A DNA stretch of 38,669 nt, taken from assembly GCF_013285555.1 (NCBI RefSeq), contig NZ_JAAXLT010000185.1, positions 1 through 38,669 of the forward strand. The letters run 5' to 3'. How positions within the stretch are numbered: position 1 is the stretch's first letter; every line of letters begins with the position of its first letter. This document shows, in pieces, positions 7,001 through 24,744 of the stretch. A program made the position numbers and the translations under genes. The notes under the pieces are model-generated. The model saw only the letters and a program-made list of their open reading frames with translations. It ran no database searches and was not told the origin of the DNA. This DNA comes from Candidatus Cyanaurora vandensis (GTDB lineage: Bacteria > Cyanobacteriota > Cyanobacteriia > Gloeobacterales > Anthocerotibacteraceae).

Positions 7001-8742
7001 TAATGGGTCCCGGACTTGCGGTGGTGGACAGCGGTACGACCAGCATGCTGGAAGATCTGGCCCGCCTGGGCGACACAGTACACCAACCAATGGTCGTGGC
7101 AGTCCATCCGGCTCTCCACCTGGGCCTCAATATAGGCCATCGCCTCAGTGAGAACGGGCGCACCATTGAGACCATCCCGGGTGGAGACCCCAGCAAAACG
7201 ATCCGCTCCTGGCGCAAAGGGCTGGAGGAAATGACGGTGCAACAGTTTCCCCTCTTCCACCACATTGAGAATCAAGCTATCCCCCCGGTGCAAGAGAGAT
7301 TCCATGGCGCGGTCCTTGGCGACCGCGACGGAAAATCCCGGCGGGTTGAAGGTGGCTTGGCTGACCCAGGAAGCAACCATGGCCCCGGTCACTTCGCCTT
7401 TGCGGGCAGTGGCGAGGTAGAGTCCGCCGACGAGACGGCCCAACGCCTGTTCCGCTGGCGTGGCCCGGACCCGCTCAGGTCGCGGTTGACGGGCTTTACG
7501 GACGGCGTGGGCGAAGTCCGTCCCGGCTTCTTTACAAAGTTGCAAGGTGCTATCGGTGGGTTTAAATTTGACCCGGATTGTCGGGAAACCCAGGGTGAAC
7601 CCGGCATCCAACAGTTTCCCCTCAATGAGATCCAAGGCCTCCCCGCTCCAACCAAACGAACCAAATACCCCGCAGGGCTGGGACTTTTTAGCGGTGGCAA
7701 GGATGACGCCCAGGGCGGTTTGAATCGGGGTCGGGGCGTGCCCGGAGATAGTCGGGGAGCCGATGATAAACCCCGCCGAGCGTTCGAGGGCCGGTTGGAT
7801 GGTCAGTGCGTCGGTCTGTTCCACGTCCAGCATCTCCACCGCCACCCCCGCCTTGGTCAGTCCACGGGCGATGGCTTGGGCCAGAGTGGTCGTACTCCCG
7901 TAGGCGGAGGCATAGATTAAAACCACCTGTTCAGTCAATTCCAGTTGTTCTTCCGACCAACGGCGGTACAGATTCAACAGTTCGCGCCGATGATAGCGAA
8001 AAAGTGGCCCGTGACCAGGGGCATAAATTTTAATCTCCAGCGGTTCAATGCGCTTGAGGGCCGTGATTAACTGACGGGCGTGGGGCGCAAGCAGACTGTT
8101 GAAATAATGATGGATGTCTTCGCGGATCAAGTCCAAGTCATCATCTAGGAGACTGTAACTACAGAAATGGGTGCTGATGACCTTGCCCGTGAAAAGAATC
8201 TTTCGGACGGGCAGATAGACAAACATTGCATCCAACCAACGAGCATTGGGGGCCATCAAAAATTGCAACACGGTTTGACCCAGGGTCAGGGTATCGCCCC
8301 CTTCCACAATCTCCAGCGGCAAGCTCTGTTCCGGTGGGGCCAAGTCGCGCAGGAACTTCGCGCCCATCTTTGAGCAGAGGATTTTGAGTTGTGGGTAAAG
8401 CTCCAGGAGGCGGTCCAGACTAGCTAGGGCCTCGGGTTCAACGTGGGTCAAGATGAGATAGTCCAAGCGGGGTAACTGCGGCTCCGTCAGATTCAACTGC
8501 CGCTCCAGGACAGTCAACAATTCTTGAAAATAACGCGGGCTATCCTCCCCCGCCGTCACGGGCAAATCCACCAGGATGTTCTGCTCCCCCAGGATTAAGT
8601 AGGAGTTGTAGGTGGTGCCGTGCTGCAACGAGAACTCGATATCAAACTTGACCTTCCCCCAGTCCTGGGCACGCAGGGCCAAGATATTCGGTGCGATCCC
8701 GCCCACCTGGATACTCTGTTCACCCACATTTAAGGTACTCAT
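6997..8742 (-). CDS. Flavodiiron protein, Flv1/FlvA type (non-canonical iron site)
   Basis: Cyanobacterial flavodiiron proteins reduce O2 to water with electrons from the photosynthetic chain, normally as Flv1/Flv3 hetero-oligomers. Three modules are visible: metallo-beta-lactamase-like (about 30-255), flavodoxin (about 270-410, LIYASAYGSTTTLAQAI) and flavin reductase (about 430-575). Several iron ligands are replaced. The H-x-E-x-D-H motif reads HVEPEA (His100 and Glu102 kept, then Glu104 and Ala105), the His before W-x-D is Arg168, and the expected Asp after LF is Lys187; the last His remains in APGHGP. Loss of ligands to neutral or basic residues marks the Flv1/FlvA group, which needs a Flv3-type partner; none is in this window. 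Start ATG 8742 has GGGAGAGG upstream. It is divergent from lysA. Confidence 0.88.
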   Translation of the reverse strand: MSTLNVGEQSIQVGGIAPNILALRAQDWGKVKFDIEFSLQHGTTYNSYLILGEQNILVDLPVTAGEDSPRYFQELLTVLERQLNLTEPQLPRLDYLILTHVEPEALASLDRLLELYPQLKILCSKMGAKFLRDLAPPEQSLPLEIVEGGDTLTLGQTVLQFLMAPNARWLDAMFVYLPVRKILFTGKVISTHFCSYSLLDDDLDLIREDIHHYFNSLLAPHARQLITALKRIEPLEIKIYAPGHGPLFRYHRRELLNLYRRWSEEQLELTEQVVLIYASAYGSTTTLAQAIARGLTKAGVAVEMLDVEQTDALTIQPALERSAGFIIGSPTISGHAPTPIQTALGVILATAKKSQPCGVFGSFGWSGEALDLIEGKLLDAGFTLGFPTIRVKFKPTDSTLQLCKEAGTDFAHAVRKARQPRPERVRATPAEQALGRLVGGLYLATARKGEVTGAMVASWVSQATFNPPGFSVAVAKDRAMESLLHRGDSLILNVVEEGKLLHRHFLQPFAPGADRFAGVSTRDGLNGAPVLTEAMAYIEAQVESRMDCHDHWLVYCVAQAGQIFQHAGRTAVHHRKSGTHY

Positions 8743-8839
8743 TGAGCCTCTCCCGGTTCTACTCTCAGAATACTTCGATTACCCGTCAGGGATTGGGCCG
8801 GTAAGGTACGGTAAAATTGCAGCACTATCACCGCTCACC

Positions 8840-10171
8840 ATGGCACCCAACCAACAAATTCGTCCGCTGACCGCCTGCGTCAACGCCCAAGGCCACCTCG
8901 CCATCGGGGGAATAGACACGGTGACACTGGCTGGACAATGGGGAACCCCCCTCTACGTGGTAGATGAACTAACCCTGCGGACAGCTTGCCGGGAATACGT
9001 CCAAGCCCTCGCCACGGCCTATCCCGGCGCAGCCCTAGCCATCTACGCCTCCAAAGCCTGGAATATCCTGGCTCTTTGCGCCTTGGTCCGCCAGGAAGGG
9101 CTAGGGATTGATGTGGTCTCAGCAGGGGAGTTAGCGGGAGCGTTGCAGGCCGGGGTTGCTGCAGACAAGATTTATTTCCATGGCAACAACAAGTCTGAGG
9201 CGGAACTAACCCTCGCTTTGACGGCGGGCGTGACGATAGTGGTAGATAACTGGTTTGAACTCAAGACCTTAGCGCGTCTGGGTCCGCAACTCAGCTATAT
9301 TCCCCGGCTCTTAGTCCGAGTTACGCCCGGTATCGAGTGCCATACCCACGAATACATCCAGACCGGACACCTCGACAGTAAATTCGGGTTTGATCCCAAC
9401 GAGATTGGTGATTTGTTTAGTTATTTAGTGGATCAACCGGGCCTCCATTGTGTCGGTCTCCATGCTCACATCGGTTCACAGATCTTTGAATTGCAACCCC
9501 ATCAGGATTTGGCGCAAGTGCTGGTGGATCTCTATGCCAAGGGTCTGCACCAGGGTTTACCTTTTTGTGAATTAAATGTCGGCGGCGGCTTGGGGGTCTG
9601 TTATGTCGCAGGGGATGACCCGCCCGCCATTGCCGCCTGGGTTGAGGCCGTGGCGGGGAGTGTGGCCCGTGCCTGTGCTAGGGCAGGCCTGGACTATCCC
9701 AAACTCATCTGTGAACCGGGCCGCTCGCTCATTGCGAATTCCTGCCTTACCCTCTATCAAGTCGGCTCCACCAAGACGGTCCCCGGTGTACGGACCTACA
9801 TTGCCGTGGATGGCGGGATGTCCGATAATCCCCGTCCAATTACCTACGGAGCGCGTTACACCGCTCTCATCGCCAACAAAGCCGACCAAGCAGCAGACCA
9901 ACTCGTGACTGTCGCCGGGAAACATTGCGAGTCTGGGGATATTCTGCTCAAGGATGTCCTGTTAGCACAACCTGAATCTGGTGACCTCCTGACTGTCTTC
10001 ACCACCGGGGCCTACAACTACGCCATGGCCTCCAACTACAACCGAGTGCCCCGGCCCGCTGCGGTCTTGGTTAATGAGGGTGAAGCAAGTCTAATTCTCC
10101 AACGCGAGACGACCGCTGACCTGTTACGTCAGGACTGTTTGCCCCCCCGCCTAATGGGTATGCCAGAATAG
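8840..10171 (+). CDS. lysA: Diaminopimelate decarboxylase
   Basis: Last step of lysine synthesis: decarboxylates meso-diaminopimelate with pyridoxal phosphate, in the cytoplasm. The alanine-racemase-fold barrel carries the PLP lysine Lys72 in IYASKAWN and the phosphate-binding and active-site motifs VGLHAHIGSQI, LNVGGGLGV and ICEPGRSLIANS. The C-terminal beta domain has GAYNYAMASNYN, which contributes the substrate-contacting Tyr. A length of 443 residues is normal. The frame is open upstream to 8612, but that part lies within the divergent flv coding region, so ATG 8840 was chosen. The 97-base gap to flv must hold both promoters; a TAAAAT at about 8811 is a candidate -10 element for lysA. 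Confidence 0.96.
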   Translation: MAPNQQIRPLTACVNAQGHLAIGGIDTVTLAGQWGTPLYVVDELTLRTACREYVQALATAYPGAALAIYASKAWNILALCALVRQEGLGIDVVSAGELAGALQAGVAADKIYFHGNNKSEAELTLALTAGVTIVVDNWFELKTLARLGPQLSYIPRLLVRVTPGIECHTHEYIQTGHLDSKFGFDPNEIGDLFSYLVDQPGLHCVGLHAHIGSQIFELQPHQDLAQVLVDLYAKGLHQGLPFCELNVGGGLGVCYVAGDDPPAIAAWVEAVAGSVARACARAGLDYPKLICEPGRSLIANSCLTLYQVGSTKTVPGVRTYIAVDGGMSDNPRPITYGARYTALIANKADQAADQLVTVAGKHCESGDILLKDVLLAQPESGDLLTVFTTGAYNYAMASNYNRVPRPAAVLVNEGEASLILQRETTADLLRQDCLPPRLMGMPE

Positions 10172-15241: not shown

Positions 15242-16006
15242 TCAGAAGTTACGGCGCGATAGGACGGTAGTCGCCGTTAGGTCCGGTTGTTGGGCCTGTT
15301 TTTGCCCATTGGTGAGGGCAGTATTGAGAGCCCCTTGGAGGGTGAGCTTGACCCGGGGCGGATTGTTACTTGCGTTGTTACTGCTGAGGTTGGGAGCGGG
15401 AGGCGTAACTGTGTCATCCACGACCGTGAAATTACTGAGATTGTCTACCAAAGGTGCAGCGATGGACAGTGTAGCGTCCGCTGCTATACCATCTTGAACA
15501 CGCGGTACTCCCCCCACGGCCCACCAAGCACTGGAAAAGTTAGCCACATTGTTTAGCGCAGTGGGTACAGGTTGGTCAGGACAGTCATCTATATAGAGAC
15601 TAAGGGTACCGCCGCGAAAACCCAAGCTAGCTAAATCCGTGGAGGGCGCAAGGTAGTAATAGGCCCTGAACTCAAAAGGTGAAGCATTGAGACAATCCGG
15701 TGCGTTGGTACTCAAGTCGCCATCACGGTACCGCAGCAGGGCTAGGACTGGTACAGCGTCATCTGCATAGAGCGGCAGGAAGGCTGTACCCTCGTACTGC
15801 GTATAAATAGCAACCGCCTTTTGAATATCTTTACTAATGAAAGCTTGGGCCTTTTGGAGTTGGGTGCGTGAGGAGACGGTACTGAGATTCACCACACTCT
15901 GCTGTGTCATATTGGCAGCAACAGCAGCGATACCCACCCCAATAATCCCAATGATTGAGACCCCGACCAGTAATTCTGTCAAGGTCAATCCGTGCTTGCG
16001 CTCCAT
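15242..16006 (-). CDS. Type IV pilin-like pseudopilin (PilW/GspJ type, HpsC-like)
   Basis: An inner-membrane prepilin that is cut and methylated, then assembled as a minor pseudopilin. The leader and cleavage region is visible: MERKHG, then LTLTELLVGVSIIGIIGVGI, with glutamate at +5 of the mature chain. The following globular part (about residues 45-254) has Cys residues (PDCLNASP, DDCPDQP) that may form disulfides. The start ATG 16006 was chosen over the longer frame because AGGAGG lies directly upstream and the six-residue leader is typical. It follows the GspH/FimT-like gene by 10 bases and sits beside PilX- and PilV-like genes. Cyanobacterial hps clusters, which secrete hormogonium polysaccharide, have the same set; the HpsC name is inference. 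Confidence 0.82.
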   Translation of the reverse strand: MERKHGLTLTELLVGVSIIGIIGVGIAAVAANMTQQSVVNLSTVSSRTQLQKAQAFISKDIQKAVAIYTQYEGTAFLPLYADDAVPVLALLRYRDGDLSTNAPDCLNASPFEFRAYYYLAPSTDLASLGFRGGTLSLYIDDCPDQPVPTALNNVANFSSAWWAVGGVPRVQDGIAADATLSIAAPLVDNLSNFTVVDDTVTPPAPNLSSNNASNNPPRVKLTLQGALNTALTNGQKQAQQPDLTATTVLSRRNF

Positions 16007-16016
16007 ACTCAGCCTC

Positions 16017-16622
16017 CTAACAACGTCCAACACTCCCTCCCCTGGCATCACTCGCCGTAGTCCCACCCACTAGACAATCCTGCCGTAACGCACCAAGATA
16101 GGTCGTGACGGTGATCCGGGCAACATTGGTCATCCCCGCTTCACGCAGAGCCAAGCTGAGCCGGGAATTCACCTCAAGGCCATTGCTGTCTGACATGGTG
16201 CCATTTTCATCAAAAGTAATCTGCAATATCTGCTCCCCATCCTCCCCAAAATTAGATTGGGCTGGCGTTCCAGGGCGGTCAGTGACGAAATAAACTCCAC
16301 CATCTAAGGTCTGCCAAGGTTGGTTGTTGCGGTCAGCGAGCGGGATCGCACTGTCGAAATAACGAAACCGGACTGGTGCCGTGGGGATACTACCCGCCGT
16401 CACCGTATCGAATTCCACTACGTAGGGAGAACTACGGGATTGGGCCAGTTGTTGAGCATTAACGAGGGCTGACATTACTTGCTCTGTTGCGGCGTTAAGG
16501 CGGTTACGTTGGATCTGGGGGACAAAAGCAAGGCTCGTGAGCGATGCCAGAACGCCCAAGATGACCACAGCCACCAAAAACTCAATCAGGGTAAAACCCA
16601 GCGTGGTTCGGAATCGTCTCAC
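16017..16622 (-). CDS. GspH/FimT-type pseudopilin
   Basis: A minor pseudopilin for a type IV pilus or type II secretion-like machine. After the short basic leader MRRFRTTLG comes FTLIEFLVAVVILGVLASL, the classical prepilin cleavage site and helix with Glu5. The region after it (QIQRNRLNAATEQVMSALVNAQQLAQSRSS) matches the GspH/FimT helix, where relatives have NDL-x-xAL-x-xAR-x-EA-x-xR. The rest is a beta-rich domain, with two late cysteines. Start is GTG at 16622 with only a weak ribosome site. It is the first gene of a minus-strand pair with the HpsC-like pseudopilin; its promoter lies in the 207-base divergent gap (16623-16829). Confidence 0.85.
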   Translation of the reverse strand: MRRFRTTLGFTLIEFLVAVVILGVLASLTSLAFVPQIQRNRLNAATEQVMSALVNAQQLAQSRSSPYVVEFDTVTAGSIPTAPVRFRYFDSAIPLADRNNQPWQTLDGGVYFVTDRPGTPAQSNFGEDGEQILQITFDENGTMSDSNGLEVNSRLSLALREAGMTNVARITVTTYLGALRQDCLVGGTTASDARGGSVGRC

Positions 16623-16829
16623 CTTCGTTGCCCCGCCCTTTACCAGTGCCCATAGTATATCGGTTGTTTTTGCAAACTAACCCTAGGATTCCCGTGAACC
16701 TTGAGTGAATTTAGGTTTAAAGAGTTACGCATTTTCCTGGGGGTGAATTTTGAACTTAGACCGAGTAATCTGGCATTGACGGAACCTCAGCTTTAGCTCT
16801 TTGATTACAACATCAAGGGGGGAGACAAA

Positions 16830-19427
16830 GTGATTGCGACAAAATTGGCACGTAGACGGCAGGGAGTAGCCCTCATCACCGTCATTCTGTTGGGGCTAGC
16901 CCTGACGGTTTTAGTTCTGGGTCTGATTGTGCGTACCCAGGGCGACAAATCCCTAATCCAGCGTGGTCGTGAAACCATTGCGGTCCAGACAATTGTGGAG
17001 GGAGCCGTGGGCCGTGCTCGGGCACGGATTGCCGCTGCTTTCAAGAGACCACAAGCTGAGCAAAACTTTCGGGCCTCTCAAGCAGACCTAGACCTCCATG
17101 GAGTTGCTTTTGATGACGATATAGCGTTGTTGACAACCCCTGGGGGCGTTCCCATCTACGAATTTACAGTAGATCATGACAATGACTCAGCCGATGGTGC
17201 TGACGCAACCGATACACCCCGCCGCATCGTCCGCTACACTTTACGCTTAGAAAAAACCGACTATCCCAACCATCCTGCTAATAGCTTGCTACTGCCTCCT
17301 ACCTCGGCTCCTACCTCGGAGGTTTCAACTTTTGGTAAGCCCCTAGCCTGTTTTTCTAGTGGCGTACTGGCCCAGACGGACTATCAATCGGATTGGTGTT
17401 CAAACAATGGGCCGACGGCTGGCGGCGTGATTGCGAATTTAGCGTTAACTCAATATTATGTGGTGACGGCGGTTTTAGTGGATGAACCGGGTCGTCCTTG
17501 GGCGGGGCTACAAACACGGATCAAAGTATCACGCAACTCTAATTTCCGTGGAAAATTTGCTGTCTACCGCGATAATCTTGAAATCTTTCCCGGCGGTGGG
17601 TTTACCATCCGGGGCGGGATTCAGAGTAACGCTAATCTCTTCATCGGTAATGGAGTCAACCTGAAACACCTGCGCGATGTAAGCGATCCTAACTTTGATT
17701 CCACCGATTCTAACGTGAATACCGTGGGCCAAATTTACCGTCACCGTCTCCACAATAACAATACCGAGAGCGATGTCAATATAGACGTGCAAGTAGGCGA
17801 TACCCTCCAGACTCGTTCTCTGACCCCCAATAATGATTCCTTGAAGGTAGGTGCAAGCCTCAGTAATTACAACGTTGGCTTCCTCAATGATTACGATGCC
17901 AATGGCGATGGTATCCTGACAGACCCCGGCGACCGTGACGTGAATGGGGATGGCCTCTATCAATATGGCGAGACTTTCAAGGGGGCTGGTGGGGCGGCTG
18001 GGGCCAACGAATGGGTCGTAGACACCGATTCAGTCCAGAGCTATACCGGCCCTAATGGGACTACGCAGACCGCCACGGGTTGGGATGAGATTGCCAAGGA
18101 GTATTTTGGCGGACGGCTCAATACCAACGCTGAGGCTTACAATGTCCCCGGTGCTGACAAACTAGATCCCAACAATCCTGAAAATACCAGCATCAATTCA
18201 GCCAATGTGAATGGCCTGCGCGTAGAAACCATGACGGGGACCTCAGTTGCGACGCTCCCCGCCAATACCAGTAATCTCAGTAATGGCGAGACCGTGATTT
18301 GGCGCGATGGGGAGGCTATCGCCGTCATCAGTGCCGATGGGTTAACGGAATGGGCTGCTGTTAACACAGACCTAAGCACTAAACAATCCAACAAGGTCGT
18401 CAAACAGATAACCCCAAGGGGGAGCAGGGCGACTGGCGAAAACTGTAACACCAACCCGCCGTCCACCCTCAGCTTTAGCCCTGTCGACACTGCCTCTATA
18501 GCGAATGCCGGTGAACGCAAATTTCCCAAGTGTACGTTTTATAACAGCAGTTTCCGGGATGGGCGGGAGAGTGCTAACAGTGGGCCAGGAAGTATCACTG
18601 TGACCAATATTAACGTCGGTAATCTGAGCCGCAGTGGTCTAGCTCCTGCCAGCGGTCTAATCTACGCCACTCGCTTTGATGCTGTTGCCGGTAATGGGTC
18701 CACCAAAGTCCCGAATGGTATCCGCATCCAGAATGCCAGCGTTCTACCCAAAGAAGCGATTGTGAATGATGCCCTCAGCGGGACTACCTGTACTAAGAAT
18801 CCCGCCTTGAAATGCATCACCCCGACCAATTTCAACTTGACCACCAATGACCCGCTTTATGTCCAAGGTACTTTCAACACAAAGACAAGCGGGGGGAGTA
18901 ACTGGATACCGGCTTCCTTGACCTCTGATGCCATTACTGTCCTCTCGAATAACTGGCGGGATGCTGACAATCAGACGGGCAATAATAACTTTGCTACCTT
19001 CACGGAGATCAATGCCGTCATCGTCTCCGGGATTGTTGCTTCTAAGGGTAGTAACTATAGTGGCGGGCTGGAGAATTTCTTCCGGCTTCTGGAGAACTGG
19101 AGCGGCTCCAACCCAAGCTGTCGCACGGCCTCACCGGGGGGGAAGAAATGCACATTACAGTTCAAAGGAACGATTATTCAACAGTGGACCAGCCGTTTTG
19201 CCACGGGCCGTTGGGGTAGTGGGTACTACTCTGTACCCGAACTCCGCGATTGGGGTTATGACCTAGACCTACTCCCGCAACCCGATGATATTTTCAGTGC
19301 CGGACTTGGTGGGGTCAGCGTGACTACAGTGGGCGGACCGGATGGCGTGTTTCAGAAGACCTTAACTCAGGCACAGATGACAGGCATTAGTACCTTGGAC
19401 CGCATTCCCCTAACCGAGGAGCCCTAA
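16830..19427 (+). CDS. Large PilX/HpsA-like pilus-associated protein with EF-hand-like loops
   Basis: An 865-residue exported protein. The N-terminus (ATKLARRRQG, then VALITVILLGLALTVLVLGL) is a prepilin-like leader and helix lacking Glu5, as in PilX and HpsA proteins. The remainder is beta-rich, low in Lys, with many Asn/Gly/Thr. At 356-381 there are two calcium-loop motifs: DANGDGILTDPGD, and DVNGDGLYQYGE, the latter a perfect 12-residue EF-hand pattern (Asp370, Asn372, Asp374, Gly375, Glu381). A further acidic run, DHDNDSADGADATD, is near 115. Several Cys are spread over the chain. Start GTG 16830 has GGGGGGAG just upstream. It overlaps the next pseudopilin by one base (TAATG) and faces the two minus-strand pseudopilins. 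The HpsA name is inference by context and N-terminus. Confidence 0.75.
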   Translation: MIATKLARRRQGVALITVILLGLALTVLVLGLIVRTQGDKSLIQRGRETIAVQTIVEGAVGRARARIAAAFKRPQAEQNFRASQADLDLHGVAFDDDIALLTTPGGVPIYEFTVDHDNDSADGADATDTPRRIVRYTLRLEKTDYPNHPANSLLLPPTSAPTSEVSTFGKPLACFSSGVLAQTDYQSDWCSNNGPTAGGVIANLALTQYYVVTAVLVDEPGRPWAGLQTRIKVSRNSNFRGKFAVYRDNLEIFPGGGFTIRGGIQSNANLFIGNGVNLKHLRDVSDPNFDSTDSNVNTVGQIYRHRLHNNNTESDVNIDVQVGDTLQTRSLTPNNDSLKVGASLSNYNVGFLNDYDANGDGILTDPGDRDVNGDGLYQYGETFKGAGGAAGANEWVVDTDSVQSYTGPNGTTQTATGWDEIAKEYFGGRLNTNAEAYNVPGADKLDPNNPENTSINSANVNGLRVETMTGTSVATLPANTSNLSNGETVIWRDGEAIAVISADGLTEWAAVNTDLSTKQSNKVVKQITPRGSRATGENCNTNPPSTLSFSPVDTASIANAGERKFPKCTFYNSSFRDGRESANSGPGSITVTNINVGNLSRSGLAPASGLIYATRFDAVAGNGSTKVPNGIRIQNASVLPKEAIVNDALSGTTCTKNPALKCITPTNFNLTTNDPLYVQGTFNTKTSGGSNWIPASLTSDAITVLSNNWRDADNQTGNNNFATFTEINAVIVSGIVASKGSNYSGGLENFFRLLENWSGSNPSCRTASPGGKKCTLQFKGTIIQQWTSRFATGRWGSGYYSVPELRDWGYDLDLLPQPDDIFSAGLGGVSVTTVGGPDGVFQKTLTQAQMTGISTLDRIPLTEEP

Positions 19428-20080
19428 TGAAAACTCGCCAGCGTCAGGGTGCTGCGTTGATTGAAGTGCTGGTAGCCTTGGTAATTCTGACTATACTCCT
19501 GGTGGCCCTACTGCCTGGTTTGACCGGTTCAGCAGTCCTCCTCCAACAAAATTCCCAGGTAAATCTCGCGGCCCAAGTCGCTAAGGAACAACTGGAAAAA
19601 ATCCGTGCCCTCTACATTCCCGTGGACGGGCTACGTTCCCCCCGGAGTAATGTGCTGGGTACAGGGACTTTTTATTGCACCTTAGGCGAACAGTTCGAGG
19701 ACGCGCTCAATCTCTGTCCCACTACCTTGACTGGTGCTGAGACACTTTTTGGTGCCAATGCTACTGTTTATCGCGTCCGTTCCGTGGTCACGGATGGTCC
19801 CGTGGGTTGCTGGTTTCAGGAGGCTAGTGTCTCTGATACGGCAAAGGATAACCTGGGTACACCCTTAGTTTGTTACGAAACCCCGGCTGCTGCTGCTACC
19901 GCTGGGGTTTTCCCGAGCTATCGCTCTTCCAAGCAGGTCACAGTTTGGGTCTATATGGAGGACACGCCAACTGCTAATGACAATAACCCCCAAGTCTCTT
20001 CAGTCCAAGCTAGTAGTGGTCAAGCAGGCGCAGAAACCTTGCGCTCTGGTCCACTTGTAATTCTCTCAACTACATTTTGA
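19427..20080 (+). CDS. Pseudopilin, PilV/HpsB type
   Basis: A minor pseudopilin: leader MKTRQRQG, then AALIEVLVALVILTILLVAL with Glu5 and the usual continuous helix. The PilV-like start of the globular domain (VNLAAQVAKEQLEKIRAL) follows. The mature part has four to five cysteines (FYCTLGEQ, NLCPT, GCWFQ, LVCYE) that could form disulfides. ATG overlaps the stop of the preceding gene by one base, so translation is likely coupled. A strong terminator 9 bases after the stop ends the two-gene operon. With the minus-strand pair this gives all four minor-pilin classes in one locus. Confidence 0.87.
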   Translation: MKTRQRQGAALIEVLVALVILTILLVALLPGLTGSAVLLQQNSQVNLAAQVAKEQLEKIRALYIPVDGLRSPRSNVLGTGTFYCTLGEQFEDALNLCPTTLTGAETLFGANATVYRVRSVVTDGPVGCWFQEASVSDTAKDNLGTPLVCYETPAAAATAGVFPSYRSSKQVTVWVYMEDTPTANDNNPQVSSVQASSGQAGAETLRSGPLVILSTTF

Positions 20081-21106: not shown

Positions 21107-21787
21107 ATGGAGGCTTGCTTAGATTACCAAAGCGCAGTTTACAAAGATGCCTACAGCCGCATTAACGCGCTGGTGATTGAGGGTGAGGCACAGGCTGTTC
21201 ACAACTATGAGCAATTGGCTGAGCTGATCCCAGCGGAAGCTGAGACCCTCCGCAAGCTCGCCGCCATGGAGAATCGTCACCGCGCTGGTTTCACGGCCTG
21301 TGGTCGGAACCTCCAGGTTGAGCCGGACATGGCCTTTGCTAAACGGTTCTTCCAGTCCCTCGAAGATAATTTCCGGGTAGCAGCGGATACCGGGGACCTT
21401 GCGGCCTGCTTGGTGATTCAATCCCTCATTATTGAGTGTTTCGCCATTGCGGCTTACAACATCTATATCCCAGTGGCTGACGAGTTCGCCCGCCGCATCA
21501 CTGAGAATGTGGTTAAGGACGAATATTTACACCTGAACTTCGGTCAAGAATACCTCCAGCGTAATTTTGACCAGATTAAAGCCGGGGTAGAGCGTGCCAA
21601 CGCCGTCAATTTACCCTTGGTCTGGCAGATGCTCAATGGGGTTACTGAGGATGCACAGGTTCTCGGGATGGAGCGCGAGGCTTTAGTTGAAGACTTCATG
21701 ATTGGCTATGGGGGTGCCTTGGGTGAGATTGGCTTTAGCACCCGCGAGGTGATGAAGATGTCCTCCCACGGCCTGCGGGGTGTTTGA
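21107..21787 (+). CDS. ado: Aldehyde-deformylating oxygenase (alkane synthesis)
   Basis: Converts fatty aldehydes to alkanes (one carbon shorter) plus formate, using O2 and reductant; a soluble ferritin-like di-iron enzyme special to cyanobacteria. All six iron ligands are in place with the family's spacing: Glu27, Glu55/His58 (ENRH), Glu110 ([12 protein letters not shown]) and Glu139/His142 (EYLH). At 226 residues it is about five shorter than typical. Start ATG 21107 is preceded by AGAAAGGA. The acyl-ACP reductase gene follows after six bases, so the two form the classical alkane pair and are very likely co-translated. Products in cyanobacteria are mostly C15-C17 alkanes. Confidence 0.97.
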
Positions 21788-21793
21788 GGTGGC

Positions 21794-22819
21794 ATGTTCG
21801 GTTTAATTGGACATCTAACGGATCTAGCCCATGCCCAGGAAGTGGCCCACGACTTAGGGTATGACGAATACGCAAGTCAGGGGCTGGAATTTTGGTGTAT
21901 GGCTCCGCCCCAAGCGGTAGATGAGATTTCCATTACCAGCATCACCGGTCAAGTGATTCACGGTACTTATATCGAGTCTTGCTTCCTGCCGGAGATGTTG
22001 AGCGGGGGAAAGTTTAAGACCGCAAGCCGCAAGATCCTCAACGCCATGGCCCATGCCCAGAAACAATGCTTAGATATCACGGCTCTAGGCGGGTTTGCCT
22101 CAATTATTTTTGAGAACTTTAATCTCGAAAAAATGACCCAGGTGCGTGATATTACCCTGGATCTTGACCGTTTTACCACCGGGAACACCCACACTGCCTA
22201 CGTCATCTGTGAACAGGCCCGCCGGGGTGCCTCAGCTCTGGGGATGGATCTGGCTCGGTCTCAAGTTGCGGTGATTGGGGCGACCGGGGATATTGGCAGT
22301 GCAGTCTGTCGCTGGCTTTCCCAACGGGCAGGGGTGGAAAAATTGCTGTTAGTCGCCCGCAATCAAGAGCGTCTGACCAACTTACAGACCCAATTGGGTT
22401 ACGGTACCTTGATGACTCTAGAGCAGGCCCTACCGGTGGCGGATGTCATCATCTGGGTGGCGGCCTTGGGACAGGCGATGCAGGTAGACCCCGGCATTCT
22501 CAAAACCCCCTGTTTGATTATTGATGGTGGCTACCCCAAAAATCTCCAGGCTGCAATCCAACGGGAGGGGATTTATGTCTTAGAAGGCGGGATCGTTGAA
22601 CACGCTCTTGACATCAACTGGAAAATCAAGAACTTCTTTCGGATTGCTAACCCAACGCGACGCTTATTTGCCTGTTTTGCCGAATCCATGTTGCTAGAGT
22701 TTGAAGGTCTGCACACCAGCTACTCCTGGGGCCGTAACCAAATCACTCCTGAGCGCATGGATGAGATTGGTTCACTTTCGCGTAAACACGGCTTCCAGCC
22801 CTTGGGGATCAGCTCCTAG
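21794..22819 (+). CDS. aar: Long-chain acyl-ACP reductase (alkane synthesis)
   Basis: Reduces acyl-ACP with NADPH to the fatty aldehyde, the substrate of the oxygenase encoded just upstream. The 341-residue length is normal. The Rossmann motif [14 protein letters not shown] lies at about residues 156-169, and the catalytic Cys is expected in [13 protein letters not shown] near the C-terminus. The N-terminal block [15 protein letters not shown] and [13 protein letters not shown] are also typical. The start ATG 21794 is six bases after ado. No clear terminator follows; the next gene begins 95 bases on. Confidence 0.97.
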
Positions 22820-22914
22820 ACCAGCAGCGGCGGAAGCATCAAGTTTCGATAAAGTTTTAATTCTTGTCTGAATGCGCTGTTTAATTAAAGGCAACTCCTT
22901 CCTGTTGATGAAAC

Positions 22915-24744
22915 ATGTTCTTACTCCCCTCGCTTAGCCCAGTCCCGCCCCCCGAGTGGGAAGATTTTTTCACTATTGTTACAAAAATTCGGGAATCTTG
23001 AAATCTCCCCACAATTTTTCAGACCGCTGTTACTGAGACCCGGCAGCTACTCCATGCTGACCGGGTCTTGATCTATCAATTTAATGAGGAATACCTAGGC
23101 ACGGTGGTGGCGGAGTCGGTAGGGCTAGCTTGGACTGCGGCTCTAGGAGCCAAGATTATCGACACTTGCTTCCAAAAAAGTCGGGGTTCCCAATACAGCA
23201 ACGGCTACATTACACCCATTAACAATATTTATCAGGCGGGCTTGACGGCTTGTCACCTTGAGCTTCTAGAACGGTTTGAGGTCTGCGCTAACCTTGTAGT
23301 TCCTATCTTTCGCGATCAACGGGTCTGGGGCCTCTTAATTACCCACCAATGCGCTGGACCGCGCATTTGGACTGAGGCTGAGGTAAATCGACTCTATCAG
23401 ATTGCGACCCAACTCACTATTGCCATTCAACAGAGTGAAACGGTTTCCTTGCTCAAGGAACGGCAGGCACGAGAGGAGCGAGACCGTCTACTGATGGTGG
23501 TCAACAAGATCCGTCAGGTATTGGATCTTGAACAGGTCCTCAAAACGACAGTGGTTGAAGTCCATAAACTCCTCCAAGCTGAACGCGTTGCCATTTACCA
23601 ATTCCAGAAGGACTGGAGCGGCGCATTTGTCGCTGAATCCGTGGCTCCCGGCTGGTTATCATGGCTGGGTCAAGACAATTTACCGTTGAATCGGAATATT
23701 GAGCAGTGTAGTGCGCGGATTCTGGGCCGGGGTTGGGCTGACACCTATCTTCAGTCCACAGGCGGTGGACCTTTTCAGCAAGAGAGTTTCCGGGTCGCTG
23801 AAGATATTTACACTATGGATTTCGCGCCCTGTCATATCGAGATGCTAGAACAGTTCCAAGTCCGTGCTTATCTTATTGTCGCCATTATCAAGAACCAAAA
23901 ACTGTGGGGACTGTTGGCGGTCTATCAATGTTCAGGTCCACGGGTATGGGAGGAAGCAGAAATTAACCTAACTTATCAGGTTGCTACCCAATTGACCGTG
24001 GCCCTACAACAGGCAGAGTTGTACCAAGCAAGCCAAGCCCAAGTCGTTGAACTCGAACGGTTAGCCCGCCTTAAGGACGATTTTATAAGCACCGTCTCCC
24101 ACGAGCTCCGCACGCCCGTCTCCAATATGAAATTGGCTATTCATATGCTCAAGCAGGCCAAGAGTGAAGCCCGCCGCCAAAGTTATGTCCAGATTCTAGA
24201 GGGGGAGTGCGACCGTGAAATTGCGCTCATCCAAGACCTTTTGGATTTGCAACGCTTGGATACTTACGCCCATCCCCTAGCCCTCAACAGCCTAGACCTT
24301 ACCCCTTGGCTTGAGCAGCTCGCCGCACCGTTTCAAGAACGGGTCCAGGAACACCAACAGCAGCTCATGCTCAAGCTAGCCAGCAACCTCCCGCAGCTAT
24401 GTACGGAGGTGCAGAGCCTAGAGCGTGTCCTCGTCGAACTATTGAATAATGCCTGTAAATATACCCCAGCCAGACAGAGTATCACGTTAGAAGTCGGGCT
24501 AGAAGAGACGCACCTGATTTTTGCAATTACCAATACTGGGGTTGAGATCCCGGCTGCCGAGTTAGCGCGGGTCTTTGATAAATTCTATCGCATTCCCAAT
24601 AACGATCCCTGGCGACAACCAGGGACCGGCTTAGGCTTGGCTTTGGTGCGACAACTCACCTTACGTCTAGGCGGTCAAGTCCAGGCGGAGAGCACGGATA
24701 ACCAGACGACCTTCCGGGTCCGGCTCCCCTCCAATCAGCTATAG
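22915..24744 (+). pseudogene. Cyanobacteriochrome-type sensor histidine kinase with in-frame TGA
   Basis: A light-sensor-like kinase with two bilin-type GAF domains and a kinase core. The frame from ATG 22915 (MFLLPSLSPVPPPEWEDFF, TIVTKIRES) meets TGA at 22999-23001 and continues in the same frame (NLPTIFQTAVTETRQLLHAD) without further stop to 24744, 609 codons in all. GAF1 has the DXCF motif (DTCF, Cys85) and the canonical bilin Cys113-His114 (TACHLELL). GAF2 has Cys306-His307 (APCHIEML) but no DXCF. HisKA has His396 (VSHELRTPVSN), and the ATPase domain has NNACKYTP and GTGLGLALV. The stop cuts ahead of GAF1, and the next possible start (TTG 23068) is inside GAF1 and lacks a ribosome site. 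Probably inactive unless read through or mis-sequenced. Confidence 0.85.

Follow-up and report, generated by a model that had tools for sequence, protein, structure and literature searches.

In insert-Cys cyanobacteriochromes (CBCRs), an insertion loop with a loose CXXR/K motif supplies a second Cys, and DTYL replaces DXCF (PMC5240096). The locus described here, part of the 38,669-nucleotide stretch of DNA that was analysed (the window), holds, as assembled, a CBCR kinase gene with two GAF domains that is intact apart from a premature stop codon. The second of these, GAF2, resembles the insert-Cys domains NpF2164g3, NpR1597g2 and Mbr3854g4 (PMC5240096) in its extra loop, its Cys in a CXXR context, DTYL and CH, but differs from them in sitting on the early-branching Gloeobacterales side of the tree. 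The first, GAF1, resembles the TePixJ GAF domain (4glq/4fof) and the dual sensor histidine kinase 6oap in DTCF, CH and similarity over the full domain, whereas its N-terminal helix region is severed by a TGA. The nearest homologues are L013 (794-aa frame) and L097 (793-aa frame), tandem-GAF kinases of the Gloeobacterales genome G007 with 56% and 51% identity, which have the same order of GAF1, insert-bearing GAF2 and HisKA-HATPase. They differ in being longer by about 190 residues at the N-terminus and in lacking a stop at the corresponding Leu column. Interrupted CBCR genes are occasional in other genomes, with one TAA in G054 and two TGA in G016, and are isolated lesions in frames that are otherwise intact; unlike these, the present stop falls right at the 5' end of the gene, with a possible start still available further on.

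Reading frame of the interrupted kinase gene

The frame runs from the ATG at 22915 on the plus strand for 28 residues to a TGA at codon 29, followed by 580 sense codons and a terminal TAG. The TGA is the single internal stop in the translation of 22915-24744, which reads MFLLPSLSPVPPPEWEDFFTIVTKIRES, stop, NLPTIFQTAVTETRQ... A longer 5' form was considered and ruled out because of an in-frame TGA directly upstream, at 22909-22911. Shine-Dalgarno pairing is absent at ATG 22915. The features of the locus are as follows.

22915-22998, plus strand: leader, ATG and 27 codons (MFLLPSLSPVPPPEWEDFFTIVTKIRES), from translation; last residues align with TKIRESL / AKIRESL of paralogues
22999-23001, plus strand: in-frame TGA, codon 29, from translation and homologue alignment; Leu in homologues
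23002-23439, plus strand: rest of GAF1, predicted DXCF type; DTCF at 23161-23172, putative bilin Cys113 at 23251-23253
23035-23069, plus strand: predicted strong RNA hairpin of 13 bp, z -3.9, 33 nt after the TGA, overlapping the first two bases of TTG 23068
23068-23070, plus strand: TTG, first in-frame start past the TGA (codon 52), in the first beta strand of GAF1
23494-23496, plus strand: in-frame ATG, codon 194, at the start of GAF2; AGGAG 15 nt upstream; 416-residue GAF2-HisKA-HATPase product
23494-24030, plus strand: GAF2, predicted insert-Cys type; Cys265 (CSAR) at 23707-23709, DTYL at 23740-23751, putative bilin Cys306 at 23830-23832
24073-24261, plus strand: HisKA; phospho-acceptor His396 at 24100-24102, H box SHELRTP
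24412-24732, plus strand: HATPase_c; LLNNACKYTP, NTGVEIP and GTGLGLAL boxes, then TAG at 24742-24744

The end of the leader and the residues past the stop (TKIRES-stop-NLPTIFQTAV) align with two paralogues on contig C138 of the same genome, TKIRESLDLQTIFNTAV and AKIRESLDLQTIFETTV. The preliminary description had proposed looking in strain relatives for an orthologue with Leu or another residue at codon 29; Leu is present in this column in 16 of 18 sampled homologues, encoded by TTA, CTN or TTG, and the paralogues in the same genome have CTA, CTA and TTA. TTA differs from TGA by one base, and is in use within the kinase gene and in neighbour genes. When Leu is put in for the TGA, the translation matches a solved CBCR structure, the dual-GAF histidine kinase fragment 6oap, from residue 20 onward (E 7.5e-53). 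The structure match from residue 20, the alignment of the leader with paralogues and the Leu at the TGA column together show that the frame is not due to chance, and, judged by these alignments, the 28 leader codons are genuine coding sequence of the kinase gene.

Domains and receptor type

Pfam analysis of the read-through protein identified two GAF domains, HisKA (1.5e-13) and HATPase_c (1.4e-21), and the H-box His, N box and glycine-rich boxes of a HisKA/HATPase sensor kinase are all present. GAF1 contains DTCF at residues 83-86 and the pair Cys113-His114, as in the DXCF type, consistent with a DXCF-type cyanobacteriochrome GAF domain and putative bilin binder. The preliminary description had reported a tandem-GAF cyanobacteriochrome kinase with a TGA at codon 29, the same frame resuming after the stop into a DXCF-type GAF, and everything downstream intact, including His396 and the ATP site. 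Translation and Pfam domains agree with it on each of these points, and all 580 codons are open.

The type of GAF2 had been overlooked in that description. Relative to red/green structures, GAF2 contains an additional loop of about 15 residues. This loop bears Cys265 within CSAR; DTYL and then Cys306-His (CH) come after it. The loop Cys in a CXXR context, the conserved Asp and Tyr of DTYL, and CH are the features of the insert-Cys type, and GAF2 is accordingly classed as a predicted insert-Cys cyanobacteriochrome domain. Given a DXCF-type GAF1 and a GAF2 with insert-Cys features, the protein would have combined two dual-Cys photosensor types. An NI-x-x-C-S loop is common to homologues from several families, such as NISECSAKYLG...VDTYL in L113, and the GAF2 insert loop was observed in two Gloeobacterales kinases and in many other cyanobacteria. 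That Gloeobacterales have an insert-Cys domain, and that related domains are spread over the cyanobacteria, is relevant to how early in evolution this type of colour tuning appeared.

Search for UGA decoding and RNA signals

A genome search for UGA-decoding components found no UCA-anticodon tRNA among 39 tRNA genes (anticodons by ARAGORN), no tRNA-Sec above the gathering cut-off, where the best score in the genome was an ordinary tRNA-Ser within the window, and no SelB above the cut-off, where the best partial match in the genome was in a 411-residue, EF-Tu-sized frame. With all three undetected, decoding by selenocysteine or a suppressor was rejected. A UGA-reassigned code was likewise rejected, since TGA terminates 8 of the 21 ORFs in the window. 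The hairpin at 23035-23069 has no counterpart in the homologous stretches and no Rfam match; it is specific to this gene, and a conserved RNA signal was rejected.

Origin and consequences of the stop codon

The locus is probably, by a modest preference, a recently inactivated (nonsense) allele or a young pseudogene in the population. The ancestral state would have been a complete single-gene light sensor, in which a DXCF CBCR GAF and an insert-Cys CBCR GAF are joined to a HisKA/HATPase kinase. Substitution of one base in the Leu codon, most simply TTA to TGA, would then end translation after 28 residues, with the result that the full-length photoreceptor is not made. This reading is supported by the position of the stop in a conserved Leu column, by the failure to detect a UGA-decoding system in the genome, and by the downstream domains and motifs, which are intact, as a young stop would predict. 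The occasional interrupted CBCR genes of other genomes, the frameshift in another sensor kinase of this genome and the absence of the kinase from beside the acyl-ACP reductase gene in the relatives examined point the same way. We infer that cells do carry this change, that it is recent and that it leaves no functional product. The 580 codons past the stop without a further lesion would also fit an error, a strain variant, or a shortened form that is functional. The main rival, a real but less likely alternative, is that the assembler took the TGA from a minority strain, or that the consensus is wrong at this base, while the resident population encodes a sense codon (Leu) and makes the full-length receptor. 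In its favour, the host genome is a draft metagenome bin of 3,073,437 bases in 234 contigs, fitting the 3.07 Mbp Lake Vanda bin of Candidatus Aurora vandensis, for which a second bin of 2.96 Mbp is also reported (Illumina reads, MEGAHIT assembly; PMC7368068). The kinase gene is intact apart from the TGA, and a second kinase gene likewise has an isolated one-base lesion. Strain mixtures are not uncommon in such Illumina metagenome data, and single-base substitution errors are uncommon in an Illumina consensus at normal depth, which counts against an error. A mis-join with a paralogue is itself unlikely and was rejected: in comparisons with eight related kinase loci of the same genome, no shared word spanning the TGA exceeded 10 bases. 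No exact DNA match was found in viral contigs.

The remaining explanations differ in whether the stop is passed or bypassed. Reading through it, by natural leakiness or with the help of a stimulatory RNA structure, would yield some full-length protein; in bacteria, UGA is relatively leaky when the next base is A, and the strong hairpin begins 33 nt past the TGA, but the hairpin is unconserved, suppressor tRNA and Sec machinery went undetected in the genome, and the homologues carry a plain Leu. Such leakage is very improbable, and programmed read-through is unlikely. The gene is most likely a copy that broke only recently, or else a variant local to this uncultured genome, ahead of a new decoding trick. 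Bypass would require a start downstream. The in-frame starts soon after the TGA are TTG 23068 (codon 52), GTG 23104 and GTG 23107, all within GAF1. Restart at TTG 23068, the earliest beyond the stop, would give a 558-residue protein with a trimmed GAF1 and is hardly credible: Shine-Dalgarno pairing is near nil (-1.1 kcal/mol), the predicted hairpin pairs two of its three bases, and in a low-to-moderate-confidence AlphaFold model of GAF1 (mean pLDDT 64.7, used solely for secondary structure near the TGA and TTG) the product would lose both predicted N-terminal helices and the beginning of the first strand. ATG 23494 is the stronger candidate. It is in frame exactly where GAF2 begins, has the best anti-Shine-Dalgarno pairing among the in-frame starts (-6.1 kcal/mol), has only intact sequence downstream, and encodes Met at residue 194, where the closest homologues have Ile or Ala. 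Translation from it could produce a light sensor of 416 residues that lacks GAF1 and keeps the insert-Cys GAF2, HisKA and HATPase. We regard this shortened kinase as possible, not likely, because its ribosome-binding site is poorly spaced, the 15 nt between AGGAG and the ATG being beyond the usual; in addition, GAF1 is undecayed, which would be unexpected had it long been dispensable. Identity to L013 is 56% for GAF1, 51% for GAF2 and 52% for HATPase. GAF1 is thus conserved as well as the other domains, and its loss, if any, would be recent.

These starts bear on two further claims of the preliminary description. It had given a TTG inside the GAF domain as the only nearby downstream start; TTG 23068 does lie in GAF1, but ATG 23494 at GAF2 went unmentioned. 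Its statement that read-through or correction would be needed applies to the full-length receptor and is too strong for a functional kinase, because ATG 23494 could yield an intact GAF2-HisKA-HATPase protein. Made from the sequence alone, the description could also take no account of the draft-bin origin of the DNA, which makes a strain variant or consensus error a real alternative. It is doubtful that the nonsense change converted a two-sensor receptor into a one-sensor form, with GAF1 silenced and the insert-Cys GAF2 kinase expressed from ATG 23494; if true, a stop codon would have switched the light input of the kinase. The stop codon itself is ordinary; if real, it would record that an Antarctic cyanobacterium of very early-branching position recently lost or shortened one of its light receptors.

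Other kinase genes and genomic neighbourhood

A receiver-histidine kinase gene lies beside a CBCR hybrid kinase on another contig of the same genome (L102 about 1518-2710; G000:C34 about 8544-9277, minus strand). It is split between two frames near L102 1960-1970 by a single-base shift, and the genome therefore has at least two interrupted sensor-kinase genes.

Directly upstream of the TGA-bearing kinase gene, at window positions 21107-22819, is a gene pair for alkane synthesis, encoding aldehyde deformylating oxygenase and acyl-ACP reductase. In the relatives examined (G001, G007 and G002) the acyl-ACP reductase gene does not have the kinase as its neighbour, and the kinase is thus no fixed member of this neighbourhood. 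A type IV minor-pilin-like gene cluster occupies window positions 15242-20080 on both strands, with two genes encoding N-terminal methylation motifs (Pfam). On contig C138 (L101 8458-12315; G000:C138), a gene whose 1285-residue product has a methyl-accepting signalling end, at least three DXCF GAF domains and more GAF domains besides adjoins CheA-like and CheW-like genes, and this region is likely a phototaxis cluster.
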